A stretch of DNA of 64,000 nucleotides from Cenococcum geophilum 1.58 (taxonomy: Eukaryota; Ascomycota; Dothideomycetes; Gloniales; Gloniaceae), in NCBI GenBank assembly GCA_001692895.1, contig KV748211.1, positions 682,001 through 746,000 of the forward strand, written 5' to 3'. Below the pieces are notes generated by a model. It worked only from the letters and a program-made list of their open reading frames with translations, did no database searches and was not told the origin of the DNA. The first letter of the stretch is position 1. The number at the start of each line of letters is the position of its first letter. Shown here one piece after another: positions 8,583-45,721 of the stretch. The position numbers and the translations under genes were made by a program.

Positions 8583-8788
8583 TGTTACGGCCCTGATGCG
8601 TAACTTAGATAGGGGGCTTAGTCAGGGTTCGGCTAAAGGCTTGGCTCCCCCTTGTATATAGACGTGTCCTCACCGCCATCTTCTTCTTCTCCTTATCTTG
8701 ATATCCGGGTCTATAAACATTCCAATTGTACAGGCTTGCATACGTTCTAAACGGCGCTCGTGCCTCAATTAACTGAGTCGCTGTGATA
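8583..8788 (+). repeat. 5' LTR of element C
   Basis: 206 bp, starts TGTTACGGCC. Roughly 96 percent identical to the partner at 10075-10280, with transitions only. Confidence 0.88.
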
Positions 8789-10074
8789 TTATATTAAGAT
8801 CCCTCAACCGATCGCAGGCTGTTGTATCCCAGGTTAAAGAAGCCCTGTGGCCTAGGGTAGTTAATAGGTGATGGAGCCCTATATACTAGCAGGCAAAGGA
8901 AGGAAGGAGAGCCTAACTCCTATAACAAAGAAGGTAGAAGAGCATACTCTAAGATAAAGCAAGACTCGTGCGAAGTCCTATGGTGGCTAGGTATGGAATC
9001 CCTACACCGTGCAGGCACCCCTTATGCTCATTGTTACCGTGGACCTATAGTGGCTGGGTATAGAATCCCTACACTTATAGGTACCCTCCCTTATATTCTC
9101 TTCTTTTTTTCTTTTCTCTCTACTAAACGGCCGCCTATGCTATGGGGAAGCACGTGCTGAACGGTAACCTCTTTCCGACCGTACGATCTCGTCGACCGAC
9201 CGAGCAACGCGTACACCTACTGACCAATCGATCGATCGAACGACGACCCTTCAAACGACCACCGTACGTCTCTATCGGACGCTTGCACTGTACTGCTACC
9301 TAAATAGTCCTTTTTAACAGACACTAAGCCACGTATACTGTGAGGAACGAAATCGGTTGATACTAAGACTAGTGCTATGCACTAGCTGCGATAAACGACC
9401 CTAACTAATACTGAGTAATACGAGCTTTGAGGAACGAAATCACTAGGACTATCAACGCTGGCATTACTCTACTATTGACTACCGATCGTGCCGATATGCA
9501 TACGATCTCTATACTAGACAACAGTAGCGCTAATACGCCTGCTACTACGACCTAACAACAACTGTGCTGGTACGCCTACAGTCCTACCGACCGTACGATC
9601 GTGCCGTTACGCCTGCGATCCACGACTTCCGCTTGCATCGTACTGCTATAATAAACGACTATACTACCCTGCCACAGTTGACGAGACAATAATCGTGCCT
9701 CTACGCCTACGATCACTCGACCAATTAATAGCCCGACCTTTACGTTTAACCTGCTATCATAAGATAACCGATAGATGAGCTCTGTGCTCAACCACTATTA
9801 TTACCACCGCTAGTACCGTACTACTACCCGAACACAGCTGCTCCTGCCTGCAGCTAAACCTTATTTTGACTACTACTGCTCCTGCCTGCAGTACCATAAT
9901 TGACTTCTGCTGCTACGCCCGTAGCACTATGATTGACCCTTGCTGCTCTGCCTGCAGCATCTTATCGACTACTGCTGCCCCACCTGCAGCAAATAACTAC
10001 AACTGTATAAGAGGTAGAAGATAAGCACCTAAGGATAAAGCTTGAGGGCAAGCTTTTTTTAAAGGGGGGGGTGA

Positions 10075-10280
10075 TGTTACGGCCCTGATGCGTAACTTGG
10101 ATAGGGGGCTTAGTTAGGGTTTGGCTAAAGGCTTGGCTCCCCCTTATATATAGACGTGTCCTCACCGCCATCTTCTTCTTCTCCTTATCTTGATATCCGG
10201 GTCTATAGACATTCCAATTGTATAGGCTTGCATACGTTCTAAACGGCGCTCGTGCCTCGATTGACTGAGTCGCTGTGACA
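10075..10280 (+). repeat. 3' LTR of element C
   Basis: 206 bp, TG...CA ends, preceded by a purine tract and followed by the CCCCC duplication. Confidence 0.88.
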
Positions 10281-11384
10281 CCCCCCTCTATAAAAGCCTG
10301 CCCTTAGGCTTTATATATCCGTATTATACCTATAGGGCGTTTTTATCTTTATATTCTTTTAGTAGCCTATTATCTTTACTATACTAGCACTTTATCTACT
10401 CGTTTAGGTACTTTAAGGATCCTAGTTTACTAGGGTAACAGCTATAAAATTCTTAAAGCTTATAGGGATTACTAATAAAGTTTTATACGGGGTACTAAGT
10501 AGGATCTAGGTTATAGCCTTTCTAACTAATACGGTACTTTAACATTTTCCATACTAGTTTATAGGTTAATATTTCTTTAATTTCCCATTTATTATCGCTA
10601 CTAACTTAAATTAGTAGGGGAGGTTCGTTCTTTTATCTAGGTAATAGGTTATTTATAGCCTTCTATAGCTTATCTGGTAAGAAAATAGGGTAAACCTTAA
10701 TTAAATCTAGGAGCTTTACTTTATATAAGTTGCCTATTTTTTTAAGAATTATATATAGCCCTGCTATCTAATAGTCTAGCTTATAGCTAGGCCGTTCCGT
10801 CTTTTAGTTCTTTATTATAACCTAAACCATATTACCTACGGTAAAGTTAGGCTCTCGCCTATGCTTATTTGCCTACTATTATATTAATTTTTAGGCCTTT
10901 TCTAAGTTTATATAGGCTACTATCTAGGCTTCTTCTAAGCGCTTAGCGTACCGCTAGGCTTCCTTATAAGATAGTTTCTTACGTACGGTCTATAGTCCTT
11001 CTAGCCTATTCTAGTTAAAGCTTATTTAGGGTAAATACCCCATTTCTAGTTAGATAGGTGTAAATCCTATAAAGTTATAGGGTAGGGTCGCCTAGGCGTA
11101 GTTTATAAGGGGTAGTAGTTTACCCTAGTTGTCTTAAAAGTAGTTAATAAAGGGCTAAAGTCTCTAGTCTAAGTATTAATTTATAATCTCCATCTGGCTA
11201 TTTGTCTAGGGGTAGTACGCTATAAAAAGCTTTAGCCTAATTCTTAGGATCTAGGTAAACTTATTCTAGAAAGCTAATATAAACTACGGTCCGCAGTCCG
11301 ATATAATAGTATCTAGTAGTTTATAAATTTAGTAGATATAATAGATGTATAGTTAGGCCACCTCTTTAGTATTAATATTCTTAT

Positions 11385-11687
11385 TATAAGGGCGCGAAGA
11401 GACTTTGGGGAAGATTTAAAGGAATAATATAAATTCTATCTAAATCTAAGGGTATATAGCTCTCGCTAAGAACAAGACGTTGCGTAAAGAAGAGAAAGAA
11501 ATAACAAGAGAATTATATAATTAAATAGTTAGGGGCTTAGTGGTCGATGCGTGCGCACGTGCGCACGCGGTCTTCGACGGACTTCGGTAATTCGATTAAT
11601 CTAGCAGATTTTGGTTAAAGCGTCGGAATTTATCTATTAAGTATTTCACTAAGACATTCCTACTATAACTGGGCTAGTCCCGTTATA
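11385..11687 (-). repeat. Left (3') LTR of element B
   Basis: 303 bp, exactly the length of its partner. Preceded by CTTAT. Confidence 0.9.
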
Positions 11688-14600
11688 GTACCCACCCTTT
11701 TAGCCGAAGGTCTAAATAATTTAATTTAAGTTAAGACTTATAACTTATCGCGTATTGTGTTTTTACGTTAGGTGGCAGTATAGGGTTTTACTAATTCTAT
11801 TATTAAATGGACTAATTAGGATTTTCTATCCCCGGGATAGAAAATTGCTATTGGCTTAGTTAAGGCGGTAAGCAGAACTAATATCTTTATAGTAGGTCTT
11901 AGCAAGGTAGATCTAACTAATTAGATAACTTTAACCGGCGGTTAAAGTTCCTTAATATCTTGCGTATTATATAATTGTATTATAAACGTTATAACGTATT
12001 TTAAGTCTTTTTTAATTTTAAGCTTCCTGCTATTATGTTTTATATATTTATGTTAGGTAGCAATTATTTACTTTTATATTATATCCATCTAGCCAAAATA
12101 GGCCGCGAAGGATAGTCCTTATAAAATTCTTTTACTAGGGAAGGCGTATTAGTCTTAATTTGGTTATAGGTTTCCTAAGTTTATATTTTATATCCTTCCT
12201 ATTTAATAAGAAGTTTAAATTATTTAGATTATATCTTCTATTATATATCGTTAATTAAGTTAATAAAGTAAGAACCGTTACCGTTGTTAACAATTATAGA
12301 AGGTAGCGGTGGTACTTCGCAAGTTATAGGTTTACCCTTTAAGGGTTATAGCAAGTTTACATAAAACGTTAGATATATTTTTATTTTAGTTAGTAGTTTA
12401 AGTTTATAAGTATATAGGCTTAGTTTCTTTTTAACTTAGTATAGGCCCATAAACTTCTAGTCTAGTTTCTTTAAGGGTCGTTAAGTCTTTAGGTTTCATA
12501 TATTTAGGTAAACTATATTATCTTCCTTAAAGTCCTACGCGGAAGCTTGTTCTTTGTTCATATACTATTTCTATACTATTTAAGCGTATGCTAATTTACT
12601 TTATAATAGTTCCGTTAACTACTTTATTTAATTAGCGAAGTTATATACGTTAATTAGTTAAATCCTCTTAATTATGGGTCCTATTGTATTAATTTTAGGT
12701 TATAGTTTAAATCTAAATTAAGGGTTTTGTCCGTAGGTTGCGTAGAACGGCGTTACGCCTATTAATTCGTTTCTCGTATTATTTGCAGTAAACTTAGCTA
12801 ACGGTAGCTATTTTTCCCAGTCGTCTTGTAGGTAGGAGCAGTATATTTATAGGTATTATTCTATAATCGCGTTTGCAATTTCAGTTTAACTATCTATCTC
12901 CAAATAAAATGTAGTTAAGAGTTGTATTTATATGCTTAATTATTTATATAGGGCTTGCTAGAAGTCTAAAACGAACTAGCTTCCGTAGTTAGATATTATT
13001 AAATTAGAAAGTCTGTATAGCTTAAAGACGTACTTAATAAAATATTTAGCTACTAATATTACATTAATTAAGTCTATAGGAATTATATATTATATTTTCG
13101 TAAGACGGTTAATAACTACTATAACATTTATAAACCTATTACTGTTAGGTAGGTTAACTACGAAGTTAATTAAAATATCTTGCCATCTTTATATTGGAAT
13201 TGGCAACGGTTGAAGTACTCCTTACTTCTTTATATAAGAGGTCTTCCTATATACATATATTCTATATACTTAAACATATTTTCATATATAGTTGTGTATT
13301 ATAGGCTAGCAATATGCTTATTAAATAATCTTATAGGTCTTTATACGGCTAGGATGCCCTACTATAGGGGAATTATATACAAATTCGAGTATCTTAAATT
13401 ATAAAGGTTTAGAATTTAGGACTACTATCTTCTATTAATAGTACAACCGGTTATTACGGATTTCGCATTTAGCGAGTATAATATCCTTATATTACCGTTT
13501 CCCTATTTAAATCGCTTTTATTATATCTGCTATTTAGGGGTTGTTCTTATATTTATGCTCTATTAATTTATTAATTTCTATGTCCCACTTATTAATTTCC
13601 AATTTATTCCTATTAAGCTCCGCGTCTAGGAATATAGGGCGTAGTTTCTTAAAGCATTTAGGGGGTAGTAGAATTTATAATTAATTTATAATCCGTTTAT
13701 TAGAGGCGTTTATAAGTAAGTCTTATAATTATTATATTAATAAGTTAGGCTTTTAATTAAGTTTGCTAGGTTAGTACGTAATCTTAAAGTTAAATTATAA
13801 AAGGTATTCGGCCCAACGAATTTGGTGCTGCGTTAATTGCTTTATAGTTATAAAGTACTATAGGTTTTTATGGTCCGTTAATATGTATATTAGGAATAAT
13901 AATCCTTTAAGTTCTAGGCGCCATTGTTTAAAGTATCTAATAATTATAAGTAGTTCCTTATTATATATCTTATAGTTTAGTTTAGTAAGGGTAAGTTTCT
14001 AGGAGAGGAAGGCTACTGGGCGCAGCTCGCCGTTCTTATTATATTGCGATAATACTCCTCCTAGTATATGGTTAGACGAGTCTATTTTAACGATATATTT
14101 AAGGTCTAGATTAAAGTAGGTGAGAATTAAAGTAGTTATAAAACGATATTTTAGGTTGTTAAAAGCTTGTTTATATTTAGTAATCTATTTAAATCTTATA
14201 TTCTTTCTTATTAAGTTTACTAATAGCTAAATAATTTTTAAGAAGTAATTAATAAATCGATGGTAGAAATTTGCGAATTTTAGAAATCCTTAAATGTCTT
14301 ATACACTATTAGGACTTTCCTAGTTTATAATCGCAGCGATTTTTTTAGGGTCTATTTTAATTCCGTTGTAGGATATAATTAGGCCTAAGTACGTGACTTT
14401 AAACGTATAGAACTTGTATTTTTTAATATCGTATTATAAGCCCGCGTCTTATAGGCGTTTAAGGACCATTTGGACGTGCTTTTAATGCTTAGAAAGTAAA
14501 GACAAATAAATTAAAATATTATTAATATACGCAGTAATAAATACATTAAGGAATTCGCAAAGTATATTGTTAATATATTATTAAAACGTACTAGGACCGT

Positions 14601-16590
14601 TCTTTACACTAAATAGCATTACTAGGTATTTAAAAAGTCCCTATTATATACGGAAAGCCGTATACTTTTTATCTCCTTTATAAATACGGATTTAATTAAA
14701 GGCGGCGACTACGTTAAGCTTTATAAAGTATTATGCTTTTACTAAGCGGTTAAGCGTTTCTTAAAGTAGAGGAATTGGATATTGGTTTTAAATTATAATT
14801 ACATTTAGGGCTTAATAATTAACATAGAATTTTAAGCCTCCTCTAGGTTTCTTAATAAATAGTATAAATAAGGTAAATAGTAATTAACTAGGGCGAATAA
14901 ATCCTTTCTTTAGGTACTCTTTAAGGTATTATTATATTATAAGCAGTTCTTCTTGTAATATACTATATAACGGGCCAAACTTTAGTATTATACTAGGTTT
15001 AAGTTCTATCTTAAAATCGTGCTTATCTTAATATGGGGGTAATTAGTTTACGAATTGTTTCTTAAACGTATTAATTAGATTATGATATTTTTTAGGTATA
15101 AGAGGTTAGGGGTTAATATATTGCTTTAGTTCTAACGCCCTTTTAATATCTTTTAGTGTTATAGAAAAGATCTTATAGTCTCATTTTCTTACTAATAAAT
15201 AAAAGGGTGCGGCTTATACTATATGAATTTTAAAGGGTTTTAATATATTATTTTCGCATTCTTTACCGCGATTAGCAGTTATAACTTTATTATATTAGTT
15301 TAAGGTTTATAGTAAGGGTAATTTATATTATATTAAATTCGAATAGTTATATGCATATTTATAGGGTAGGTAGTATTTTAAGCAATAACTTTGGTAGTAG
15401 GTTGTACGGAATTTTAGTATTTCTTTAACCCAGCTAATTAAAGGGTTATATTATTTTAGTTATCTATATCTAAGTATTACTTTATAATGCTTTAAGGGTA
15501 TTATAAATAGGGAAACGTATTTAAGGTGTTTGCCTATTCGCATCTTTATAAGAGCATAGTATATTAATTTACTGTGTATTAAAGGCTTACTATTAAAGCC
15601 TTATAGGCCTTAGGGCTTATTAAGTTTCCTTAAATTTAAGCGTTAAGTTTTTGCGTAGTTTGTATTAATAAAGCCTATATTAATAGCTCCGCTATTTATA
15701 AGGATTTATACTTCTTTCTATTTTCTAAGTATTTAAATTTCGCTAAGTATATTAAGGGAGTTGTGTTATATATTAGCGCTAGAAGAGCTTAGACACTTAT
15801 ACTCTTCCACTTTTTATCTTAAGGCGTAACTTAGCCCTAGGATAATTCGTTTTCTAAGTTAACTAAAGGCAAGATGCTTTATAGCAACTAAGTATAATTT
15901 ATAAAATAAGTGCGACTTAAGGACTAAGAGGAGCTACGGCGGACCTTTTTAAAAGGGTAAGTTTGGTAATCCCTTTAAATATATCCCTTCTTTCTATATC
16001 CGAAATATTCTTTATTTACGGCTTATATTCTTTATTTATTAGTTCCTAAGGGTATATAGGATTAAGTGGCGTTAAGGTCCATAGGGTTATACATAAGGCT
16101 TTTAGGTCTTAAAGATAGGTCGCGCTTTAAAATATATATTAGTTTTATAGAGTTTTAGGCGCGAGATATAGTTAGCTTTAGAGAACGAGTCTACTTATTA
16201 TATTAGAGGTCTTTATTAATTCGTTAATATATTATAGTAAATTTGGGTAAGTTTTTTGGTATATTGGTAAAATATAGTACCCTACCAATGGCCTCAATGG
16301 TTAGTGGTTGACGCAATTGGCGCGTAGTTAAGGGCATTTGGTAACTTGACCGACTAGCCTATGTCGTGTTTTTTTGATATATAGCCTGCGCGTAGTTTGC
16401 GCGCAACCTATATGCAACCTGCGCGAAACCTGCCAGTAATCTACGCATTTGGCAACTATAATTATATTTACCTCTTTTATACTAATAGCATATTTTAAAT
16501 AAATAAAAGCTACTTTAAGGCTATTTATAAGGCTAGCAAAATAAATATTATTTTAGATAATTTAATATAATATAGTAATGGTTCTCTTCT

Positions 16591-17003
16591 ACTTATCTAC
16601 CTATTAACTTACCTACCTACCTATTTACCTACCTACCTACATCGCCTACCTGTTTATATTGCCTACTTGTTTATATCACCTACCTATCTACATTGCCTAC
16701 CTATCTATATCGCCTACCTGTCTGCATCGCCTACCTATTTATATCGCCTATTTGTTTACATTGCCTACCTATCTACATCGCCTACCTATCTGCATTGCCT
16801 ACCTGTCTGCATCGCCTACTTGTCTGCATTGCCTACCTATTTATATCTACCTACCTATCTATATCTGCCTACCTGTTAGCATTTACTTACCTGTCTACAT
16901 CTGCTTGCCTATTTGTATCTAATTACTAGTCTATATCTACCTACCTATCAGCATCTGCCTACCCGTTAGTATCTCCCTGTTTGTGCCTACCTGTCTATGC
17001 TGC
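16591..17003. repeat. Minisatellite 1: 17-bp unit
   Basis: Tandem units of the form CCTACCTATCTACATCG, with C/T and A/G variants. They are preceded by CCTA-rich sequence and trail off into longer variants after about 16850. Because 17 is not a multiple of three, all three plus frames stay open and read as similar repeats. These are not genes. Pyrimidine-rich on the plus strand. Confidence 0.9.
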
Positions 17004-17048
17004 CTTGATTTAATCGATCGATTGAATCGTTTATAGTGTTCGCTGGCT

Positions 17049-17400
17049 AGTCGTTGTCGTCTAGCTCTGGCGACGGTCGTCTGGTTCTAGCAACGGTCGT
17101 CTAGTTCTAGTAATGGTTGTCTGGTTTTAGCGACGATCGTCTAGTTCTGGCGACGGTCGTCTAGCTCTGGCGACGGTCGTCTGGCGACGGTCGTGTGGTT
17201 CTAGTAACGNTCGTCTGGCGACGGCGACGGTTGTCTGGTTCTGGTAACGGTTGTCTAGTTCTAGCGATAGTTATCTGGTTCTGGCGACGGTCGTCTTATT
17301 CTGGCGACGGTCGTCTGGTTCTAGTAACGGTGTTCTAGTTCTAGCGACGGCGACGGTCGTCTGGTTCTAGTAACGGTTGTCTAGTTCTGGCGACGGTCCT
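17049..17400. repeat. Minisatellite 2: 21-bp unit
   Basis: Tandem units around TCGTCTAGYTCTGGCGACGG, with some copies shortened to a repeated GGCGACGG. One ambiguous base sits at 17210. It is richer in GC than the surrounding element. Confidence 0.9.
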
Positions 17401-17518
17401 CTACTAGCTACCATTTTAGTGCCTCCCTAGGTAGGGAGGATATAAGGAAGGATAGATGGATAAAAAAAATAAGGTAGCTATATAGGAGAGGCTATTAGGA
17501 ATATAGCGGGGACCCGAT

Positions 17519-17967
17519 GTAGAGCTTTGTGTAGAGCCTCTGTACGCAGAGCTTCGCGTAGAGCCTTGTGTAGAGCTTCGTGCAGAGCCTCGTGCAGAGC
17601 CTCCGTACGCAGAGCTTCGCGCAGAGCCTCTGTACGTAGAGCTTCGGGCAGAGCCTCTGTACGCAGAGCTTCGTGTAGAGCCTCTGTACATAGAGCTTCG
17701 TGTAGAGCCTCGTGTAGAGCCTTATGCAAAGCTTTGTGTAGAGCTTCGTGCAGAACTTCGTGCAGAGCTTTGTGTAGAGCTTCGTGTAGAGCTTTGTGTA
17801 GAGCTTTGTGCAGAGCTTCGTGCAGAGCTTTATGCAGAGCTTCGTGCAGAGCTTTGTGCAGAGCTTCGTGTAGAGCTTTGTGCAGAGCTTTGTGCAGAGC
17901 TTCGTGCAGAGCCTCTATACGCAGAGCTTCGTGTAGAGCTTTGTGTAAAGCCTTGTGCAGAGCCTTT
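17519..17967. repeat. Minisatellite 3: 12-bp unit with 15-bp variants
   Basis: Tandem units YAGAGCTTYGTG, with longer variants containing CTCTGTACG in the first part of the array. Both strands stay open: the plus strand reads a four-residue CRAS-like repeat over 148 codons and the minus strand an EALH-like repeat. Both are products of the repeat, not recognisable proteins. Many CpA dinucleotides are intact, so the array is not RIP-mutated. Confidence 0.9.
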
Positions 17968-18060
17968 AAGTAATAAAACTGTATAAAAATTCATTTGCGT
18001 AATTAGCATATAACTTTACCTTAATTGCATATTAAGGAATATATAGTTAGCTTTTAAAGT

Positions 18061-18462
18061 TATTAAGTAGGTTAACTGCGTATTATTTAACTTTTAAATA
18101 TGTTAAGTAGGTTAACTGCGTATTAAGTTAATTAAATTATATATTAAGTAGGTTAACTGCGTATTAAGTTAGTTAAATTGCATATTAAGTAGGTCAACTA
18201 CGTATTAAGTTAGTTAAATTACATATTAAGTAGATCAACTGCGTATTAAGTTAGTTAAATTATATATTAAGTAGGTTAACTATATATTAAGTTAGTTAAA
18301 TTGCATGTTAAGTAGGTTAACTGCGTATTAAGTTAGTTAAATTGTATATTAAGTAGGTTAACTACGTGTTAAGTTGGTTAAATTATATATTAAGTTGGTC
18401 AATTGCGTATTAAGTTGGTTAATTGCGTGTTGAGTTGGTTAAATTGCATGTCAATTACGCGA
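18061..18462. repeat. Minisatellite 4: about 41-bp unit made of two half units
   Basis: Each unit combines a 20-base half (TTAAGTAGGTTAACTGCGTA) and a related 21-base half (beginning TTAAGTTAGTTAAATTG). AT-rich, unlike arrays 2 and 3. Confidence 0.9.
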
Positions 18463-19295
18463 AACGCGAATACTAAAGTCAACTTGAATCTCATCCTGCG
18501 AATATTTTCCCGATGTAGTTCTCTACCTACTAACTATACTCTAATTTTATCTAAAATAGCTTAACGGAGAGCAGTAACTCTAGCGGCTTTATTTTAATCT
18601 AGTTTACTAATAAGGCCTAAAAATTCTGAAAAAAAGCTAGTAAAGTATCGGTTCCGTTATTATAGGTTTTTAAGTTTAATAATAGCTATATATTCGCGGC
18701 TGGCGTTATTATATATTTGTTCTAATAGAGAGATAAAGATTTTAAAATTAATAAAGGTGCTGTTATAAAAGAATAGGTCTATAGTTCGTATAGCGTTTTT
18801 GCTTAAATAAGATATTCTATAGCTAATCTTGCTAGCTTTAGTAGGGTATTAGTTATAGTTTATTAAAAGTTTAAAATAGAGCTTAGTTATAAAGGGATAT
18901 AGGTTATTTTAATATCTATTAAACATTAGAGGGTTAGGGAGCTTTTTAAATTTTATAGTAGGTACTAGGTTTATTATAGGTATGGGTTAAGCTACTATTA
19001 CTAGTTTAGGGTTTGTATTTAATAGGTTGGGTTCGCATATAGTTATTTTAATTTTATTTATAGGTATTATTATTAGGGTTTCTAACGCAAATACTTTAGC
19101 GTCGTGAAGTTCTTTATATATTGCTTTAATTAATTACTAATACTAAGCTTTTAGTATAGTTTGTTACTAGGCCAAGGCATCTATAAAGGACTGTTATATT
19201 ATAGTCATTTATTCCCTAACTAGGGCCATAATAGTTAACGTGGCGGATTTAAGTTCGTTTGCTATTTTAAGGGTATTAGTATTAACGCAACGTAA

Positions 19296-19598
19296 TATAA
19301 AGGCGCGAAGAGACTTTAGGGAAGATTTAAAGGAATGATATAAATTCTATCTAAATTTAAGGGTATATAGCTCTCGCTAAGAATAAGACGTTGCGTAAAG
19401 AAGAGAAAGGAATAACAAGAGAATTATATAATTAAATAGTTAGGGGCTTAGTGGTCGATGCGTGCGCATATATACACGCGGTCTTTAACGGACTTCGGTA
19501 ATTCGATTAATCTAGTAGATTTTGGTTAAAGCGTTAGAATTTATCTGTCGAGTGTTTTACCGAGACATTCCTACTATAACTGGGCTAGTCCCGTTACA
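19296..19598 (-). repeat. Right (5') LTR of element B
   Basis: 303 bp. Read on the minus strand it starts TGTAACGGGAC. Followed by CTTAT. Confidence 0.9.
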
Positions 19599-22500
19599 CT
19601 TATAATAGGGAATTAAAAAAGGGCGTTTGCTAAAACGGTTAACTAAGATTATAACTAAGATTATAACCGTTACGGTTTACTAGTAGTTTATAAAAGTCTA
19701 TAGAGATATACTATTAGGGGCGCTCTAATATCGGGAGTGGCTTTAATAGTCCTAGGGTTTTATCTTGTAGGATTATCCCTTATAACGCTGCTTCGCGTCT
19801 AACGGTTATTGATAAGGATTAGCTAATTAAATCGTTAGGATAAATAAGTCGTGATAAGATATTTAAAGCTTTTAATATGTATATAAAATGCTATATAAGC
19901 TTGATTTTTGGTAGAGAGTTATGTAATATATAAGCCCTAGCACTCGTCCTTTCTGCAGAATGGAATTCTACAGGCGCGATTAGAAGGCATAGTGGTTAAT
20001 TATATTTCTATATAATTGTATAGACGCGTTTACAGACATTTGAAAATGGTGTTTACGCATAGACTAACTCTTATTAGACGCTAGCGTTGCAAGGGATAAA
20101 CCTACGGTAGTTATTATAGTTCTATATATAACGGTTAATATCTATAACTATTCCGGGCTAGTAGTAACGGTTACTAATAATTTTATAGGTCTTATTTTTT
20201 TTAGGGTAAGCCGTAGAGACCTAGGTATATGCTTTAGTAATAAGCCAGGTTTATAAGTTCTATTCTTTTACTACTACTAGCCGTTTCTAGTACTTAAGCA
20301 GTCTATTTTTAAGGGACTATAGGCTAGTAATATCCTTTACCTTTTTACAGTACTCCTATAGAGAAGGGTCCGTATAGTTTGCTTATAGTAGTTTATTAAT
20401 AAGGTTAAAATTTATAGGGTTAATAGGATATATCTCGGCGCTTAAAGATTTAGTACTTAGTTCTTCCCGTATTTAAGGGTTAAGATACTCTAGTTATAGT
20501 AGCGTTTAAATCCGTAATAAGATCTTTACAGCTATCTAGTTATTTAAGTCCTATTTACGCCTTATAAAAGCGTCCGCATAGTTAATAGCGCCGGGCCTAT
20601 ATATAATTAGGAAGTTAAACTAAGATAGAATATCTGCCTAGCGCGCCTACCAGGCCGTAAGGGCTTTTATTATTATAAAATATTCTAAGGCCTTATAATC
20701 TAAAACCACTTAAATAGGTTTAGGGGTCCCTTTTAGCTATACTCGCTAGTTCTAAAAGCTATAAATAATAGCCAATATTTCTTTATTATAAATTGGGTAG
20801 TTTAGCTTAGTATCTATTATAGTCTTTAAGTAGTAAGTAATAGGGTGCTATTCCCCATCTATCTGCTTTTGGGAATAAATACTAGCAATAATACTATCTA
20901 AGGCATCCGTTTTTAGTATTAAGGGCTATTTTAGGTTAAAGTAGGCGAGTAAAGGAGCGAAGACTAGCTATTTCTTAAGTTTATTAAAAGCCTGCCTATA
21001 TACAGTATTAAAGTAAAAGGGCCGGTCCTTTATTATAAGGCGGCTAAGGGGCTAAGTAATTCTACTGTAGTTCTTAATAAAGCATTAGTAAAAGTTATAG
21101 AAGCCTAGGAATAACTATATCCCTTTTACGGTCTATAGTAGTTCCTATTAATTAATTACGGCTGTCTTTTCTAGGTTTACCTTAATTCTATTTATACTAA
21201 TAATAAACCCTAGGTACTTTATTTACTTTATATTAAACTTTAACTTTTTAATATTAGCCTAGAGGCTAGCCTTATAGAGCCGTTATAGAACTTTATAGAC
21301 GTGCTCCTTATATTCTAACTTATTTTTAGAGTAAATTATAATATTATCTAGGTAGGCTGTATAGAAGTTATTAAGGTAGTTAAAGAGTATATTATTTATA
21401 TATTGTTAGTATATAATAGGTTCGTTAGTTAGTCTAAAGGGGAGTACTTTATATTTATATAATCCGTATTAAGTCCGAAATATAATAAGGTCTATAAATT
21501 TAGGGTTTATTTTAATTTGGTAAAAGGCCTAGCGGATATTAAGCTTTATAAATACCTTAGCTCTATTTATTTAGGCCAACGTCTTATCTAGTAAAGGTAG
21601 TAGATAACGGTCTTTACGGGTTATATTGTTAAGCTTATAGTAGTTAATATAGAAATAAAGTCCTCTATTTAGCTTTTTTATAAAGAAAATAGGGAAGGTA
21701 AATAGGGCCTAACTAGGCTTAATAAACCCCTTTACTAGGTTATCTATAATATACTACTTAGTAGCCTATAATTCGGCAATAGATTATTTATAAAGGGGGG
21801 TATAGCTAAAGACGTTTTCCTTATCTAGTTTAATCTCGATCTTATAGTCATATAGTTAGTAGGGTAGGAGTATATTAGATACTACCTTAGAGAATATATT
21901 TTTAAACTCTTAGTACTAATAGGGTAGTTTCCGTTCTACTAGCTCCTTATTTATAAGCTTATCCTCCTCTTAGACTAGGGTCTCTTTTTCTTTAATTATT
22001 TAATTAATTTTATATAAGCTAGTTATAAAGGTAATGGTATTTAGCTAAACTAAGTTCTAGTAGAATCCTATAGCATTAATATAGCAGATATTAACTGGTA
22101 GGAGGTCCGTAGGTTTCTTTACGGATATTTATTAGGCCGTATTTTGCGGTATAAGGTTTATAGTCTTTCTTAGCTCGCATTCTATTTTCTATAAGTTATC
22201 CTTTTAATTTATTAGTTTAGTATACCGTCTAATATTCCTAGCCTTCTATTATAGCTATATAGGGCTTAGGTTCTCTACTAGGGACTTAGGTAAGTCACTA
22301 TTAACTTCCTAAGTCTATAGTGCGGGTAGCGTAATATAGGTAGTCTAGGGGCGGCGTAGTATATAGATCCGTTGCAGGTTAAGCTATATATCCTTCTTAA
22401 AGGCCTAGTCTTTACATATAGCATCGGCTTAGTAAATAGTATTAATCTAGGGTTATACTAGGTTTTCTATTATAATGCTAATTTTTTTTTATAAAAGAAG

Positions 22501-24232: not shown

Positions 24233-24658
24233 TGTAATGAAACCTTGTAGCAAGAACTACGGTGGGTCCTATTATTAGGCTAGGTGTATAGGAAATGCAA
24301 TTACAAAAGTCAATAACGTAATAATAACTAGTGGAGTGGTTGCCTAATAGATTAACTTTAATTATATTCTAAGAATCACTACAAGGAAGGAACTATCTAG
24401 GTAGGGACTAAGGGTCCTTAAATACACAACCGTACTCTTATAAAATCCTTCTTATACGTAATATACGTCTTATATATAAGGTATATAAGTTCCTCTCGTT
24501 CCTCTCGTTTAATATATAGTATATTATATAACCTTAGTTACCATTCCTCGTTATATAGCTTTATCGGCTTTATCTTAGACCGTACTTAAATTAACTAACT
24601 AGCTTCTTCTAACTCTTCCCTAAGTAGTTATAATATTGTACTTAAAGCGTCCATAACA
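24233..24658 (-). repeat. Left (3') LTR of element F
   Basis: Starts TGTAATGAAACC on the plus strand and ends ATAACA. Collinear with 31765-32191. Confidence 0.85.
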
Positions 24659-27600
24659 CTATCTCCCTCCTNTTTATCTTNGTCCTTAAAGATNCNNANT
24701 ATCTNTAAGTTNTTTANTAGAGGTGTAATATCCGTCTAATTAATTTAGTTAATATTATTGCTTATTATACCTAAAGCAATTTCTTCCTTATACGCCCAAT
24801 GTCGTGCTCGCACTATTACTGCAATATTATCTCTTGGTAAAATTATACTAACTCTATATTTTTGTTATTTAAAAGAGGGGCTAGTTTATATTACGTTAGC
24901 GAACCCATCTTCGTAATAACTATCCTCTTATTTAAAGTGCACTAAAGCAAATATTTATTCGTCCTATGACGTTTGCTCTACCTCTAATGCTAAATATATA
25001 CAACCTATTACTCTTAATAGTCGTCTAGTTCCTTAATTAATTTGTCTTAAGGTCTTATATTTAATCTACTACTGCGCGGCTAGATAGTAAACTATCTTAC
25101 GCCCTAGCTAAGCTAGAATGTTCTTATAATGCGGAATAAAAGGCCTTAGATACTTAGATCGCGGCGTTTACTCGCTTACTTTGTCTTAAGAAAGTTCGTA
25201 AAAAGGTCTATTTTAAGGAGTAGAAACTTATAGAATAAGGTTTATAGGAACTTAGTAATAAAAGAACGGATTCTCTTTTAATAGAGAAGGAAATAGATCT
25301 AAGTAATTCGGTAACTACTCTTCTTAGGTCCCCCTTAGGTAACTTATTCTTTAGTAATCCTTCTTTATTAATGCTACCTAACCTAATTTCTTCTAATACT
25401 CCTGTACCTTTCTTATAGCATTCTTTAAATTTTCTAGTAGTTTTTAGGTAGTCTTATTATAGCCTGTCTACTTAACCTCGTACTATATTTTGTCGTTAAT
25501 ATCCTTATAGTTAACGATCTTTAAAACTTGCTATTTGTCTTCTTCCTATCCTCTATATATATCTGCCTTATAAACTAATGGCTTAATATTCCCGTGTGCT
25601 GGTTCTAGCATTATAATATACTATATAGGGTAGATCTTTATTTTAGCTAGTAGGTTTAATTTAAACGTAACCAGTGAAATCCTTTATGTAATTTTAAAAG
25701 ATTTTAGTCTAACATAGTCCAACTTCTTACTTAGTTATCAACTCTTAAAAATTTTGTATAGTAGCCATACTTTATCTCCCTCCTTAAGATCTAGTCCCTT
25801 AGATCTCTTAGCATCATAGTACCTTTTTATTCTCTCTTATACTCTTTTTACTAATTCTATAAGGTCTGCATAAAGATTTATTAATGTCTTTATTCTTTCT
25901 TTAGCTGTACTACTTATTTTCTTTACTTACTGTAGTAATAACGATGTTCTTAGCTTATACCCGTAATTTGCCTTAAATAGTAATATACCTATTCCTTTTT
26001 AAGGTGCTGTATTATATGCAAACTATATAACTAGTAATAGCGATACCTAATTATTTTATGTATAATTAATATAATGTTTTAGATACTACTCTAGTATCTA
26101 ATTTAGTCTTTTTATTTAACCGTCTATCTGCGGATAATATGCGGTAGAAGTTACTGCTTAAACTCCTTACTCTACTAAGAACACTTCCCAGAATACTGCT
26201 ATAAATCTTAGATCTTTATCTAATATAATCTTACTTAGTACTCTATATCTTATAAGCACTTCTTTAATATAGATTCTAGCGACATCTTCTACTAAGATTT
26301 CTTCTATACATGCTATAAAGTATCCCTACTTTGTAAGCTTATCTACTATTACTAAAATCGTATTATAATCTTATCCGGTAATAGGATCTCTTAACTTTAG
26401 TAACTTAATAATAAAGTCCTATAATATAACCTCCTATGGTCTCTTTAGTATTTTAATAGGTTATAGCCCTCTATATGGCTTATACCTCGTTAGTTTATTC
26501 CTTTAGCAATTTAGATACTCCTTTATTACTTTTCTTATAATATTCTAGATTCTATTAATAATATACTCTTCCTAGAGTCTTGACACTAAGCTTATAACTC
26601 TATTATATCCTTAAGTTAATCCCTTATAGAACTCTTCCATAAATTACTCTACTATGCTTCTTAGGATATACCTTACTTCTTAGTTTTTATATATATCCGT
26701 TTATAGATCTTCTAGTTATACTTTTAGAATTCTTTATACCTAAAAGCTTTCTAGTATCTTATAGACTTTCTCTAGTTCGTTACTCTCTTAAGTTGCTATA
26801 ATTTTTAGATAATTAAATCTAATTAATCCGTCTGTATCTTTTCGCAGTAAAGCCCTTAATGGCTTTTTATCATTTTGTAGTTTAGCTTTATAGCTCAGAG
26901 CGTCTGCCCGCATATTATCTATACCCTTAGTATACTAAATCTCAAAATAGTATTCTATAAGTATCTCTGCCTATCTAACCTGTCTTTAGTTAAGCTCCTT
27001 TATTATTAGGAATTCCGTTAGGTTTTTATAATCCGTTTTAACTATAAATGGTTTCTTTATACCTTATAAGAATGCTCTCTATTTCTTTAGTGCTGTAACT
27101 ATACCTAGCAACTCCTTATTATAGATATTATAGTTTAACTCTAGTAGTGTTATCTTTTAACTATAATATGCCACTAGGTGCTATTTATTTTAATATTTCT
27201 ATATAAAGTACGCCTTTAGTATATAGTCTAATATATCTATCTCTATAACCGTCTTTAGTCCTAGTTAATAGATCTTAAGAACTGGCTCCTAGGTAAATAA
27301 CTCTTTAATTTTCTTAAATAGTTCTTACTACTCCTTTCCCTATACCTATAGTTCTTCTTTCTTTATTAATCGTGTAAATAGTTTAATATCCTTTAACTAC
27401 TACGCTATAAACCTTCTACAGTAATTGCAAAGCCCTAAGAATAATCTTAACTATATAACGTTCTCTAGTTTTTACTAATTTACTATAGCCTTAATCTTCT
27501 TTAGATCTATGCTAAGTTAGCCTAGTTTAATAATAAATCTAACAAAAACGGTCTTCCTAGTAAAGAACTCGCATTTCTTAATTGCTATTAGTATCTGTTC

Positions 27601-30600
27601 TTTTTATAGTCTCCTTAAGACCCATTTAACGTATTCCCCGTATTCTTCCTTAGTTATTAAGTAGATAATAATATCGTTGAGGTATACTATAACAAATTTA
27701 TCTAAGTATTCTCCTAATATATTATTAATACACTTCTAGAATATTGCTAGTGCGTTTATAAGCCCAAATTATATAACTAATAGTTTATATAGTCCTTCCT
27801 TTAACCTAAAGGCTGCTTTTTATTTATTGCCTTCCTTAATCCTAATCTAATAGTACGCCTATCTTAGATTTATCTTTATAAAGATTTACGCATTACCTAT
27901 CCTATCTTAGATTTTACTAATTAAGGGTAAAGGATACCTATCCTTTCTAGTAATGCTGTTTAACTATCTATAGTCGACATACAGCCTTAGTTTGCTATTC
28001 TTCTTTATTATAAATAGTACTAGATAACCCGCTAATAACTGCGATGGTCTAATATATCCCTTTTATAAATTTTCTTAGATAAACTCTTTTAGTACTCTAC
28101 CTTCCTCTTTAGTAAGCTTATAGATTGGAAAGAACTTTAGACTTATTCTTAGTTCTAACTCTATCTTATAGTCCTATACTGTATATTCTAACACTTTCTC
28201 ACTTTTAGGTAACTATAGTTTCTTACCGTACTTATAGTATCTCTTTAGTACGTAACTTAATCCCTTATCTATTTCTTTATAGGTCGCTCCTACTTAGTAC
28301 TATACTAACTTAGCTTATTATTATATCTTACGGCGTTAAGTATCTCTAATATCGACTTAACCTGTAATCTAATTGATCCTTAGATTATATTCCTATAACT
28401 AAGGTATTTCTAATACTACCTTATCCTATCCTAATAGTAGGATATTAAAAGATATCTTAATTTGCCTTCCTTTAATAGTTAGCTAAATAGGTCCTGTTTT
28501 AAGATTAATAATCCCTCCTCTATAGGCTATTAGATCTCCTAAAATCGTAACTAATAGGTAAGGTTACTCCTTCTGTCTATAAGGTAGTCCTATTCTTTTA
28601 ACTACTGTTAGTAAGATATAGTTTCGCGTGGCTCCACTATTTATTAGCGCTTTAAACTGCTAATCTTACCATTTAATTCTTAAATTTAGGTGTTGTCTTT
28701 AAATTCCTTTAAGGGTCTAAGGCTCTATTACTGGCTCCCTTTAGTCCTATAGGCCTCTACTTTTCCTAAATATTAGCTACTTAATCCTGCTATACTTGGC
28801 TTACTCTTTAGCTAATATCTAGTTCGCTTTTTATCTTTAATATACTATAGATACGTATTCTTTAGGCAATCCTACTACTGTTATCCGTTTAAGCATTCTT
28901 CCGTAAGGAATCTTCCTAGTTAAAGTATTAAATCTCCTTCCTTTTAGACTTCTGCTGGATGCTATCTATGCATATATTTAGCATTTCTGTACTATTACTC
29001 GTCTATTATCTAGTATATCCTTATAGGGTATTTCCAATTCTTTTCTTTTAGATTTTTGTGTATCTCGCATATATTATCTATGTATGCAATCCATAATAGC
29101 GTGTAATATGCTAGATGCTTTAGGTTAACTCTTAACTTATCTTTATCTTTAAGTTTAAACCTTTATCGTGCTAATCTAAATGTTATAACTTTATTTATAG
29201 GTACTAAGATGCGTCTCTTGCTTCTTTAGTTCTCTAATGGTTTCTCTAGATCTTTTAACGTCATAATTAAGGCTCCTTTAATATAATTTATAGCCTTTTC
29301 CGTAATTGGGTGGTCTTGGATAACTTTCTTATCTAACTATATATAGAAATCTTCCTATTTATCGTTGTGCCTCTGCCTATACTACTTTTAATATAGTTGC
29401 TAGAGTATATACGGCTTATCTATAAGAAAGTATCTTCTTATTATTGCGTTATAACAGCCCTTTATATGTTGTTCTTTAAACCTAGTAGGAATTCCTAAAT
29501 CCTCTTTATTTTCCAGTTTAGTAAGCCACTTAGCTCTTAGTGTGCCTATTCTTAGCCTATTAGTAATTCTTTATACTAGCGCTCTGTCCTTTATATGTCC
29601 CACTATGCTAGATTTCTTATCTAGTTTCTATTCTTGCTATGCGATAATTCTTTGTCTAAATTCTTCTATGGTTTCTTTAGGTTTACGTCTCGCGCTTTAA
29701 TCCTTAAAGTTCTCTTACTTCTTAATCTTAGTATTAACTTTTTGATTTTTAGTCTAAACACTATATTCTACTAATAAGTCCTTTAGGTTTATGTGTCTGT
29801 CTCCTAGTCTGGTTACTATTTATACTATAGATTCTCTAATCTATAAAGAAGCTCTTTGCCTCTTATCTGTAGGTGTCCTAATTTGTTCTCTAAATTCTTA
29901 GTCCCTTAGATTCTTTAATCCTAAGCTTACTTCTAACTTAAGCTTAGCTCTAGCCTTAGTCTAACTAGGCTTACTTAGTATTCTTATCTCGTCTTAAGAG
30001 TCTTAAATCTTACTTATCTTATCTTAAGAGTCTTGTGCCTGTAGGAAACTTTGTCCTAAGCTTATTTGTATATCTTTAAACTAAGCTACTACTTTGCTCT
30101 ATTGGTTATTGTTTATTATAAGTCCTTAAGCTTACCTTATCTTATTTTAAGAATCTTAGTTATCTCTTATCTTATCTTAAGAATCTTAAGCTTTTAGCCT
30201 TTTGCCTTTATTAAGTGCTAAAGTAGTTTACTATCCTACTTTTCTTATATCTTATAAAGCGATAGACATTATGTCTAGTAGGGTTTCGATCTCTACTAAT
30301 ATTCCCTATTCTATAGTAGAATTATCCTCTGCTTTTAGTATAATATCTCTAATAGCTATATGTTCCTAGTAAACCGCTCTTATTACCTTATTGTTATAAA
30401 ATATTTCGCCTATATTAAATTTATCGTCTTTAATATCTAATCTGCGAACTAGTTTATTAATTTCTCTATATCCTATAGGTATTAGCTCTTATAGCTAGTA
30501 GCTTACGCCGTACTTAGCGTCCTTATAAATTTAGTATGCGTTATTATAATAAAACGCAAAACTTTTAATTAAATACTCTTTTGTTCCTTGCAGTATATTA

Positions 30601-31764
30601 TTATCCCTCTATATATATATGTTATCTACTATTAGTCTAGTTCCCTTTATTATATAGTATCTCTAACTATTTTTATAATCCCTTATAAATTAACCTTATT
30701 TTCCGTAATTTATATAAGCTCCTTCTCTAAACTATTACTTTTACTATAGAGTCTGCCTAAACGTCTTCTGCTACTAAGATCCCTGGTTTAGCCTCTGCTC
30801 CTTAGACCTTTAATTACTTAATTCTTATTAGCTAGATTTCTACGGTTTCTTACTTTATCTCTTATAGGCTTCTTTAGTACTACTTAGGTCTATTAGCTCT
30901 ACACTATACTATAGTTTTTAACTTAGCTTTAGTTGTTATATACTTTACGCCTTATATAACTATAGAACTCTATCCTAGCCCTTCTTAGCCTATTCCCTTT
31001 AGTAGATCTAATTATTAATCTTAATTGCTTAATCTATTAGTTCCCTTAGGGTATCCGCATCTTCTATTAGGATAATTATATCCTAGACTTTAGCCTTAAA
31101 TCCTTACTTATACTATGCTATAAGCGCCCTATTATTTTACTTAACTTATATTGCTAACGTTTAGAACTACGTTATATACTTAATTACTAAGGTTTATTGC
31201 GTAATATCTTAGAGTTTTCTTTCCGCTATAGTTACTGCCTCTAGGTCTCCAAATATTTGTATAAGTCGCTCTATAAATCCATTCTAGCTTAAGAATATAA
31301 ACCGTACCTCTTAGTTTATAGTTATTATTCCGTTTACCTAGATTTCTATAAGGTAAGGCTTAAATTATTTAAGTGCTTTTCCTGTTAAGAATAATCCTAT
31401 ATATGCTATTTAATCTATAGGTATTGCCAGCTTAGCTCCCTCTTACGCGACCTTAAAGTGCATTTGCGTAAGAAATCCTTTAAGCTTTAATCTCTCTCCT
31501 AAGTATCTTTTAATCGATAGTAACTTAACCTTTACTGCGCCTATCCCGTTAATCCTATTTTTTAACGTTATATTATTTTCTATTAACTAGTTAACTATCT
31601 CTTATAACTATCTAACCGTTATAGGTTACTATAAGTTAGTGTCTGCTATACTAGTGTCGTTACCTAACCTTAATATAGTTGCCGCCATTAATGGCGTTAT
31701 AGTGGCTGCTTTTAGTGGCATGTTATTTAACTTATTATTATTAATACCGTAACTAGGTAGTAAT

Positions 31765-32191
31765 TGTATAACGGAACCTTGTAGCAAGAACTACGGTAGG
31801 TCCTATTATTAGGCTAGGTGTGTAGGAAATATAATTATAAAGTTAATAACATAATAATAACTGGTGGAGTAGTTGCCTAATAGATTAACTCTAATTATAT
31901 TCTAAGAATTACTATAAGGAAGGAACTATCTAGGTAGGGACTAAGGGTCCTTAAATACACAACCGTACTCTTATAAAATCCTTCTTATACGTAATATANN
32001 TCTTATACNTNAGGTANNTAANTTCCTCTTATTCCTCTCGTTTAATACGTAGCATGTTATGTAACCTTAGTTACCATTCCTCATCACATAGCTCTATCGG
32101 CTCTATCCTAGACCGTGCTTAAATTAACCAACTAGCTTCTTCCGACTCTTCCCCAAGTAGTTATAACATCGTACTTAAAGCGTTTGTAACA
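31765..32191 (-). repeat. Right (5') LTR of element F
   Basis: Collinear with 24233-24658. Contains several ambiguous bases near 31999-32021. Followed by CTTTA. Confidence 0.85.
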
Positions 32192-32201
32192 CTTTAGATA
32201 A

Positions 32202-33179: not shown

Positions 33180-33372
33180 TGTTACGGAACCCCACCGCAG
33201 GGGCCTCTATAGGAGAGCCCCGTGCTCTCGCGTACACCTCGCGTATAGCTTATGTCAGCTACGCGTAGGTATATCACCTCCTTACGCCCTCGACCCTTAC
33301 GATCGATCGCGTAACGTCTTATAGACTCCTTGAATACATACGCTTTATAGCCACTGCCCCCGTCCCATAATA
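33180..33372 (+). repeat. 5' LTR of element G
   Basis: 193 bp, starts TGTTACGGAACCCC. Preceded by GTAAC. Confidence 0.88.
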
Positions 33373-36300
33373 TTACGTTACGCCTTTTTTACTACTAACG
33401 TTTAGCCTACGACTAATTCTACGTCTTTATAATACTGTAGGCGCTGCTAAAAGCAGCGTATTTATAAATTACCTTACTTTATACTTCTAAGGAACCTATA
33501 ATAGTAAGACAATATCCCTTATTAGCTACTATATTAAACCTAAAGAATAATCTAATACCTATACTTAACCTACAACACTAATTAATCCTAAGAGAATTTA
33601 ATTTATTAGCCTTAGCCTTAACCCCTAAGGAGACGGACACCGATAATATCTTATTGTTTATTAACTATATAACTACAGATAAGCAAATAGAAGGGCTACT
33701 ACCTATTAAAATTAAAATATAAGACGCCAAGATATTTGTAAAAATGGTAGTATAAGACCCTAATAAATACTACCGCCTTCTATAGAACTACTACCTAAAG
33801 CTTATATAAGCTGAGATGCGTACTACCTAAGATTGCGATATTATTTAGGACCTATAAGCTTATAAGGCGCTTACTAACAATATATATTAAGAAACTAAAG
33901 ACAGCCTTTGTATATCTAAACGCGACATTTAATAGTTAAAGAAGGCTAAGATTATACTAATTGCTATAGTTACTAAAAGAGAAGGTATAATTAAATACCT
34001 ATAATCTTAGCTTAATAAGTATATTTATAACAACGCTAGACACCTCTTTACTATATATAACACCACTTAAGTCTCTACGCCCCTAGTAACTTTACCTACT
34101 TAACGCTTAACGGGGGGCTAATGCTAAGCAGCTTTACCTAATAGGAACCCCTACTAAAGTAGCAATAATAAAAGCCATAATAATTAGACCTAAACTGCTA
34201 CTATAGGGTCTAATATACGCTACCTTAATCCCCTAGTCTTTTAGGGAGACTATAAAAAATATAGCTACTAGAAGATGCAAATCTATAAAAAAAAACTAAC
34301 TTAGAGCGCCTGCCTTTTTTCTATAGAAGATATTAAAATTGGCTATATTATCGGGCGAATAAAGGGTATACTATTTAATAGACTCTTCGCCTAATAGGAG
34401 ACTAGTAGCCCCTAGAAGTGGCAGTCCTACTAAGAAGTCCTTAATAATCTTAACCTAATATACTACGACTATAACCTACTAGCCACTAACCAAACTAAAC
34501 TACGTGCCCTAAAGATAAGCCCTATTAAATTATTTAATAAATTCTATATTAAATTCTAGGAATACACCAGAGTTTTTACCTAAGATAATACTAAAGACTA
34601 AGAGGACCTTCTTAAAAAAGTTACTTATTGCCTTAGTTACGCAGCCGCTAGCCATAACTATAATAATATTTATAATATAGTAGTAGCTTTACAAAAGATC
34701 GAACGACAACTAAATTAGATTACTACTACTAACTCTTACCTAAATACCTCTCTATAAAAGCCCTTTGGGCCTACTAAACCTATATATACTAAGCCACTAA
34801 TACCTACTACCTTAAGTACTACCGGAACTAATATTAATTTCTTTATACTAACCTTCCTATAAAAACTTCTAGATAGAGAATATAAGCTACTCTAAAAACT
34901 AGGACGCTGCTATAGATACCATTAAAAAGGCTATTATTATAATAACCTAAACTGCCTAATAGCTAGGTTTAGTAGCTACCGCTTAATATCTAACCTAATA
35001 CCCTAAATACTAAATACGTTACTATATACCACTACCGTTTAAGATAAAGATATAGTAATAGCGGTAAAGTTAAATACAGAAACGGAAAACGCTAAGTCCT
35101 AGCCCTAAGTCGTAGGTTAGGATACCCTAATAACGGAGGGATCTATATATCGGCTTACTTAATAGATAACTCTATAAAGATAAACGGACGAAAATAGATA
35201 GTTTTACCTATAATAGGAACTACTACCAAAAAATAATATAAAAGCCGTTCTATAATTAATTGTGGAGCTACTAATAAATTTATAAATACCTAATTTGTAT
35301 GTACTTATAACCTACCTACCTTACCCNTTACTAAAGCCCGCGCCCTATAACTTGCTAATAGTAATTATACTATATAAAAGATTACCTATATAGCATAACT
35401 CTACCTAGATATAAATAGGCACTAGGAAGAACTCTGGGCCTATATTATTCCACTTACTAACTACCCTATTATCTTTAGAATAAACTAGCTTAAATAATAT
35501 AACCCCGCCATTAACTAGAAGAAGAAAAAAGTAATCTTTAACTCTAAATACTATAGAGAGACTTACCTAGGGCATAGCCTAGCTACCTCTATTTACTCCC
35601 TAGGATATTAACCTAAGGAACCTCTTATTATCCTACCTATAACTAATTACTACTATATAAGTGCCCTAGCCTTCTACCGTATAGCATATAAGAAAGGCTA
35701 AACCATTACTATAGCCTTTTAATTACAACTATATAAGCTTAATAAAGAATAGGACTATGTCCTTTATAGTAATAGAATAGACATAGTTAACCTTCTAGAA
35801 GACGACGCCCCTACGGAACTCTACGGACTTTTACCTTTAAACTTTAAGAAGTTTATAAAGCTTAAAAAAGGACTTACTAATAAAGAACTCTATAAGCTCC
35901 TCCTTAAGAGGTACTATAATTTTACTAATATGTGCTTATAAAAGAGCGTAGATATACTCCCCCTATATTGACCTAATAACTATACTATTAATATTAAATA
36001 AGGAAAAATGCCACCTTATAAGAGACCCTACTTAATATTAAAAGATAAACTTCTAGTTATAAAAAAGTATATTAATAAGCACTTTAATAAAGGATTTATT
36101 TATCCTAGTATATTACTAGCAGCTACCCTTATCCTTCTTACTAAGAAGCTAGGAGAAGGTATTTAATTCTACGTTAACTATAAAGGACTTAACGCTATTA
36201 CGATTAAAAACTAATACCTAGTACTGCTTATATATAAGATCCTTAAGCGGCTTAGTTAAGCCAAAATCTATATTAAGCTTAATATTATTGCTGCCTTTAA

Positions 36301-37403
36301 CTGGCTCTAAATATAGGAAGATAGTAAATAGAAAACCGCATTCGTATTATACTTTAGCTAATTTAAATATACTATTATGCCCTTTAGCGTATATAACGGC
36401 CTAGGCACCTTTTAAAGCTATATTAATAACGCCTTACGGGACTACCTTAATAACTTCTACTCTGCGTACCTAGACGACATACTTATTTATAGTAATAACC
36501 TCTTTAAGTATACTAAACATATTTGAAAGGTCCTATAGCGCCTTAGGGACGTAAGACTTTATATTAATTTAAAGAAATGCGAAACCCTAATTATAGAAGT
36601 AAAATACCTTAGACTAATTGTTATTACTAAGGGTATCTATATAGACTCTAAGAAGGTACGTATAATTACTAAATAGTAAGCCCTTAACTGCATTAAGGAT
36701 ATATAAGCCTTCCTTAGTTTCACTAACTTCTATTCAAATTTATATACAACTTCTTAGGCGTAGTAGTACTATTTAGAGCAATAATGCGAATAAAGGGCCT
36801 TTCTATAAAAGGAAGAAAAACGTACTTACGCTTTACCTAGATGCCTAAATGCAAGAAGGCGTTCTAAGACCTTAAAAATGCCTTTACTAAAGCACCTATC
36901 CTAGCTTACTTTACACTAAGATAACAACTCTACCTTAAAACCGACTCCTTAGACCACGTTAATGTAGGCGTTCTCTTTTAGATAGGTAATAACAGTCTTC
37001 TTTACTTAATCGTATTCTACTTATCTAAGTTTATATTATAAAAGTATAACTATAAAATCTATAATAAAGAACTCCTTATAATTATATAAGCGTTTAAAGA
37101 ATTTTAACTAGAACTCTTTTTAGTAGAGCTTAATTAGCTAACTAAAGTCCTTACGGACCATTATAACCTTAAGTACTTTATAACTATAAAGCAGCTAAAC
37201 TAACGCTAAGTATATTAGAACGAGTTCCTCTCTAGTTTTAACTTTAAAATTATATATAGACTAGAAGTATAAGGTACTAAACTTAATAGCCTAATACGCC
37301 GCTTATAAGACCTTCCTTAGTCTAAAGATAACCCTTATAATTAGTTTTAATAATAGATAATCCTAAAAGTACGAAATTTGGCCCTAGGTATACTACCTAT
37401 AAT

Positions 37404-45716: not shown

Positions 45717-45721
45717 GTAAC

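Follow-up and report, generated by a model that had tools for sequence, protein, structure and literature searches.

In plants, satellites are known to arise from tandem repeats within LTR elements. In the plant Ogre and Retand elements of the Tat lineage, the excerpted text of the reports describes hypervariable regions of tandem repeats lying between pol and the 3′ LTR (PMC7004042, PMC11963269). Element B, an LTR-bounded element in the window (the whole 64-kb stretch of DNA analysed here), resembles these elements as the excerpts present them, in that short tandem arrays, whose units differ in sequence and length, add to the size of a Ty3-type LTR element. It differs in the position of the arrays, which lie between pol and the 3′ LTR in the plant elements but seemingly inside gag in B, and in that the host of B shows RIP and the arrays of B are mutated. 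Since the B arrays lie on the 5′-LTR side of RNase H, that is, on the other side of pol, element B is not a member of the Tat-type elements, although by analogy it would work like them. Among the matches listed in the open-licence literature, in the portions of text available there, we found no fungal LTR element with stacked minisatellites, which is no proof of absence.

The units of ribosomal DNA are kilobases long. In Stagonospora nodorum, the terminal unit of the rDNA is described, in the part of the source available, as RIP-mutated tandem repeats with CpA changed to TpA, and the preference for CpA is given there as the usual mark of RIP in most fungi (PMC2621366). The likeness to element B, as far as that excerpt goes, is that tandemly repeated DNA has undergone change from CpA to TpA; the difference is one of scale, kilobase units in the rDNA as against units of 12–41 bp in the B arrays. 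For Neurospora, the excerpted text of PMC4858203 states that 155 bp of perfect homology suffices for RIP and that triplets spaced 11–12 bp apart are detected. Short interspersed homologies can thus trigger RIP, and the unit of one of the B arrays, array 3, is 12 bp; however, the Neurospora work used engineered repeat constructs, and self-recognition of a minisatellite is not among what that excerpt describes. By analogy, it is conceivable that arrays such as those of B are recognised by RIP on their own.

Structure of element B

Element B (11385–19598, 8214 bp) has the paired LTRs and the target-site duplication of an LTR retrotransposon, the two LTRs being 303 bp each. Two adjacent stop-free pieces match the RNase H domain of Ty3-type pol (Pfam RT_RNaseH_2, E = 1.2e-14; RT_RNaseH, E = 2.3e-06), so that the Ty3-type RT/RNase H assignment comes through RNase H, the reverse transcriptase having been recognised by eye only. 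Because the RNase H matches are on the minus strand, B reads on that strand, and judged from its sequence it is a Ty3-type LTR retrotransposon, now dead. The features, in order along the window, are as follows.

11380–11384, target-site duplication CTTAT, left copy, flanking element B
11385–11687, minus strand, 3′ LTR of element B, 303 bp, LTR pair by self-BLAST
13861–14184, minus strand, RNase H of Ty3-type pol, in a pair of neighbouring stop-free pieces (Pfam)
15460–15600, minus strand, protease-like piece, by eye
15960–16010, minus strand, zinc-knuckle-like piece of gag, motif by eye, anchor at 16007
18480–19200, minus strand, capsid-like part of gag, RIP-mutated, from the frame with fewest stops and resemblance to Ty3 gag by eye
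19296–19598, minus strand, 5′ LTR of element B, 303 bp, LTR pair by self-BLAST
19599–19603, target-site duplication CTTAT, right copy, flanking element B

By eye, the order along the minus strand is capsid-like gag (∼19.2–18.5 kb), the arrays, the zinc-knuckle-like piece (∼16.0 kb), the protease-like piece (∼15.5 kb) and RT/RNase H. The capsid-like frame has 14 stops in 240 codons, against 32 in 239 and 33 in 240 for the other two frames, and it shares its phase with the zinc-knuckle-like piece. Of seven pieces of B compared with Pfam, the RNase H pair matched and the other five did not; nothing was returned for the 62-aa and 48-aa gag pieces, for the protease-like piece or for the 46-aa piece at 13537–13674, the one piece searched from the region after RNase H where an integrase would be expected. 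The gag, zinc-knuckle and protease labels come from motifs recognised by eye, with no database match behind them, and are used here as our presumed assignments. A search of viral contigs with the RNase H piece of B found no relative.

Element B sits inside another element, whose halves match 37.9–39.1 kb and 51.0–52.2 kb in self-BLAST. Elsewhere in the window, nested LTR elements occupy 33188–45725, where an outer pair at 33188/45532 encloses an inner element at 37398–43570. At 8583–10278, a pair of 204-bp direct repeats (96% identical) surrounds a 1.7-kb insert, and this looks like a small non-autonomous LTR element. Judged by its repeat pair it is less RIP-altered than B (estimate 0.13), though its dinucleotide index is still RIP-like. 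Its interior contains several short repeat families, for example 28-bp copies ∼33 bp apart at 9899–9991, so that stacked short repeats occur in another LTR-type element besides B. Clusters of scattered N occur in or beside repeats (24672–24717, 31999–32022, 38203–38260 and 52009–52068), suggesting unresolved assembly of repeats.

Four tandem arrays in element B

Tandem Repeats Finder (TRF) located four tandem arrays within the element, and by inspection their units are mutually unrelated, which bears out the principal observation of the first-pass annotation, that four different minisatellites are stacked inside one LTR retrotransposon. The unit lengths of 17, 12 and 41 bp given there were recovered, while the second unit is 20 bp rather than 21 bp. 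Nor do the arrays lie strictly back to back, as had been described, since spacers of 57, 114 and 94 bp separate them.

16240–16590, presumed non-array remainder of the extra block, the boundary at 16240 being a guess
16591–16998, array 1 (A1), 17-bp unit, ∼22 copies, with a degenerate TACC-rich edge
16999–17055, spacer between arrays 1 and 2, 57 bp
17056–17403, array 2 (A2), 20-bp unit, ∼17 copies, with 40- and 60-bp higher-order periods
17404–17517, spacer between arrays 2 and 3, 114 bp, CpA-poor and TpA-rich
17518–17966, array 3 (A3), 12-bp unit, ∼35 copies, with interspersed 15-bp variants
17967–18060, spacer between arrays 3 and 4, 94 bp
18061–18445, array 4 (A4), 41-bp unit, ∼9 copies, the unit itself a 20 + 21 bp dimer

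The four arrays take up most of 16591–18445. Their TRF scores of 245–507 are the highest for tandem repeats in the window, compared with best scores of 45–90 in each of 20 block-wise dinucleotide shuffles of the window. Periods of 34, 40 and 36 bp in A1, A2 and A3, respectively, outscore the single units. Array 2 contains one N in the assembly, at 17210. Hairpin folding of six stretches was compared with shuffles, and was somewhat better for array 2 (z = −2.38), the spacer 17404–17517 (z = −2.13) and 16300–16440 (z = −1.75); arrays 1, 3 and 4 fold no better than their shuffles (z = 1.28, 1.62 and 1.88). These folding results carried no weight in the argument.

An extra block, apparently within gag

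Element B had been described as about 2 kb longer than its relatives, almost exactly the span of the arrays. This holds only roughly, the arrays accounting for most of the extra length. Against the 8214 bp of B, the corresponding spans are 6270 and 6173 bp for two of the other LTR pairs, ∼6365 bp for a third without its nested element, ∼7959 bp for a fourth, which has no large array, and ∼1.7 kb for a fifth, small one. Since the LTR pair at 24.2/31.8 kb thus spans ∼7.96 kb without large arrays, element length is a poor guide, and the gag interval is the better measure. Inspected by eye, that span (24235–32193) seems to carry its surplus between the zinc-knuckle-like part and the protease-like one.

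With anchors picked by eye in B and in five comparators, the interval from the capsid-like to the zinc-knuckle-like part is 2568 bp in B, as against 330, 333, 339, 300 and 384 bp in the other elements of the window. The interval is short in all five comparators, two of which, being 80% alike, represent one family. As the comparators seem to belong to families other than that of B, the native gag interval of B may be longer than theirs. The arrays apparently interrupt gag, with the capsid-like part on one side and the zinc-knuckle-like part on the other, and B has there ∼2.2 kb of extra DNA (∼16240–18445; the left edge is a guess from the gag frame, set so that the remainder equals the interval of the comparators). 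When the entire 16591–18445 is discounted, the B interval is still ∼713 bp, compared with 300–384 bp. Because this remainder exceeds any comparator, the arrays together with their spacers look added, rather than grown from a native gag linker, and a captured segment, one of the origins suggested in the first-pass annotation, is therefore favoured over expansion of native gag sequence. Three tests for direct or inverted similarity at the edges of the block gave a lowest p of 0.10. A possible resemblance of 16240–16470 to arrays 1, 2 and 4 was rejected after six tests (lowest p = 0.048).

Within the window the block is unique at the level of self-BLAST: 16200–18700 has no match elsewhere (word 11, E = 1e-8), and only 10 exact 14-mers of 16240–18470, scattered, recur outside it. 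Exact-pattern scans of viral contigs gave two 18-bp matches for array 2, with no array seen in the 120 bases around the L001 match, and no matches for either array 3 or array 4; in genome contigs, the array 3 pattern gave one exact 22-bp match, in Mesorhizobium.

The non-array sequences offer a further view of copy number. The CpA/TpG index of the spacer 17404–17517 is 0.08 (its dinucleotides include 1 CA, 2 TG and 18 TA), like the 0.07–0.10 of the gag and pol parts, and that of 16471–16590 is 0.06. The index is intermediate in 17967–18060 (0.14), and the RIP signatures are weak in 16240–16470 (0.34), where CpA/TpG is better preserved than in the gag and pol parts of the element, and in 16999–17055 (0.38); the value for the gene region at 54.5–60.5 kb is 0.56. 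The evidence that the block was formerly multi-copy is thus mixed.

Expansion and RIP

Across all aligned units, 182 of the 209 non-majority bases are transitions and 27 are transversions. By array, the transitions and transversions number 60 and 8 in A1, 42 and 7 in A2, 53 and 1 in A3 and 27 and 11 in A4, transversions being more frequent in the last (11 of 38). Where a C or G was deemed original if at least a quarter of copies retain it, C-to-T-type change was found at 64/155 CpA, 43/174 CpG, 12/184 CpT and 4/70 CpC sites. All four arrays show C:G to T:A change, and the array block overall has the CpA-preferred C to T change and few transversions that characterise RIP.

In the full-length units selected for this comparison, the purine/pyrimidine pattern found most often is shared by 14 of 14 in A1, 10 of 13 in A2, 28 of 29 in A3 and 7 of 7 in A4, and the same units comprise 12, 12, 15 and 7 distinct sequences, respectively. 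The C/T and G/A states of neighbouring units showed no positive correlation at p < 0.05 (lowest p = 0.067) in two columns of A3 tested at lags 1–6 and in four columns of A1 and two of A2 tested at lags 1–3; these tests cover A1–A3 and have little power with so few units. The length variants of A3 (12 and 15 bp), by contrast, do correlate positively at one lag of the six, lag 2 (p = 0.011). The shared purine/pyrimidine pattern, the predominance of transitions, the CpA preference and the lack of significant positive correlation between neighbours suggest that the arrays were near-uniform when RIP struck. Expansion probably came first, with RIP afterwards.

One CpG column of A1, however, alternates between units, with a concordance of 0.23 at lag 1 and 0.75 at lag 2 (p = 0.067). 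Given this alternating column and the higher-order periods, part of the C/T variation in the arrays may be older than the expansion. Pairwise estimates of CpA conversion are 0.46 for A1, 0.51 for A2, 0.19 for A3 and 0.71 for A4, and 0.29 for the LTR pair of B, the last from 8 discordant and 10 conserved sites. The GC skew is mainly positive over 11–24 kb (except at 16–17 kb) and mainly negative over 24–37 kb, and CA is scarcer than TG in most parts of B, a hint of strand bias in the C to T change.

Array 3 had been singled out as GC-rich and as keeping its CpA. It is GC-rich, and the richest part of B in CpA/TpG, but its CpA is not intact, TpA standing at the plus-strand CpA site in 15 of 35 units. 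This change, together with the absence of significant correlation between neighbours, speaks against the earlier proposal that the array is younger than the RIP event, and against full resistance to it. In 29 full 12-mers, CpA and CpG on the plus strand are each lost from 13, so that CpA is not favoured over CpG within this array alone, and on the minus strand CpA is lost from none and CpG from two. Since array 3 has the lowest conversion of the four and its change is almost wholly on one strand, weaker or partial RIP is possible there. Array 3 is less affected, not untouched, and it is here that the RIP reading is weakest.

Coding capacity of the block

After the stop at 18536, the next one met in the gag frame is a TGA at 18401, within array 4. 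Plus-strand TCA (minus-strand TGA) occurs in this array at 18194, 18235 and 18399, one in each frame. Because RIP at CpA converts TGA to TAA and does not create TGA, array 4 probably closed the gag frame before RIP, an argument drawn from three codons. Over the whole block the three frames hold similar numbers of stops (50, 52 and 50). Against early closure stand the common phase of the two gag parts and array 3, which stays open over 170 aa in the gag frame, its other two frames holding only 1 and 2 stops. As the sequence now reads, the cassette ends the gag frame early, and this copy of B could probably not make full Gag-Pol even before RIP.

Origin of the block

The reading we favour, with a probability of roughly 55%, is that the block is a captured or hypervariable, probably non-coding minisatellite cassette of ∼2.2 kb within the gag of B, in which expansion was followed by RIP. 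The cassette would have come to element B either as captured DNA or as a region that is hypervariable in its lineage. Abnormal strand transfer in reverse transcription, or replication slippage, would then have enlarged the arrays to a state in which the units were almost uniform, and RIP would subsequently have mutated the arrays and the element together. Probably unable to make full Gag-Pol, B would either have moved with help provided in trans or have received the cassette after its insertion.

It is possible, though we consider it doubtful, that the cassette instead belongs to the normal structure of the B family, being carried by all its copies as in the plant Retand and Ogre elements and dispersed by transposition. 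The strong CpA loss in the non-tandem spacer 17404–17517 is what would be expected of a multi-copy cassette under RIP, and such regions do exist in plant elements, according to the excerpts of PMC7004042 and PMC11963269. However, the window holds no second copy of the block, the RIP signatures of 16999–17055 and 16240–16470 are weak and that of 17967–18060 only intermediate, and all five comparators are without the cassette, though these seem to be other families. The absence of another copy in the window would suit growth of the arrays in place, by replication slippage in a single copy after B had inserted and died, as would the interruption of the gag frame by the arrays. We nevertheless judge this distinctly unlikely: with each array collapsed to one unit the gag interval would still be ∼1070 bp, against 300–384 bp, leaving other extra DNA to be explained, and the units were apparently almost uniform by the time of RIP, whereas RIP would be expected to strike new copies early.

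Two further alternatives concern single properties of the block. That array 3 postdates the RIP event, or is immune to RIP, would account for its having the highest CpA/TpG content in B, the lowest conversion estimate (0.19), and a nearly one-stranded change in which CpG equals CpA (13 of 29 each) and minus-strand CpA is unaltered (0 of 29). It is very unlikely when plus-strand CpA is gone from 15 of 35 units without significant correlation between neighbours, and when 53 of the 54 non-majority bases are transitions. A repetitive Gag linker, formerly encoded in frame by the arrays, is one way to view the common frame phase on either side of the block, which is expected of an originally in-frame insert but has a 1 in 3 chance of arising anyway, and the 170 aa over which array 3 is open in the gag frame, even if its other frames are almost as free of stops. 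Since three of the unit lengths (17, 20 and 41 bp) are not divisible by three, TGA is present in all frames of array 4 and stops are equally common in the three frames across the block, a coding origin seems highly improbable.

Implications

Beyond the favoured reading of a captured or hypervariable cassette, a bolder and rather unlikely extension is that B represents a fungal Ty3 lineage carrying a hypervariable minisatellite cassette in gag and spreading with the aid of a helper, and that the internally homologous arrays helped to provoke RIP. If this were true, the near-uniform purine/pyrimidine pattern with its scattered transitions would be a record of a burst first and RIP second. More generally, the locus probably shows a familiar kind of feature at an unusual site, apparently a fungal gag, with the order of events reversed from that first proposed. 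The C-to-T scars on every array make the order of expansion and mutation readable from one sequence, and the locus could serve as a natural test case for the recognition of short-unit arrays by RIP in their own right.
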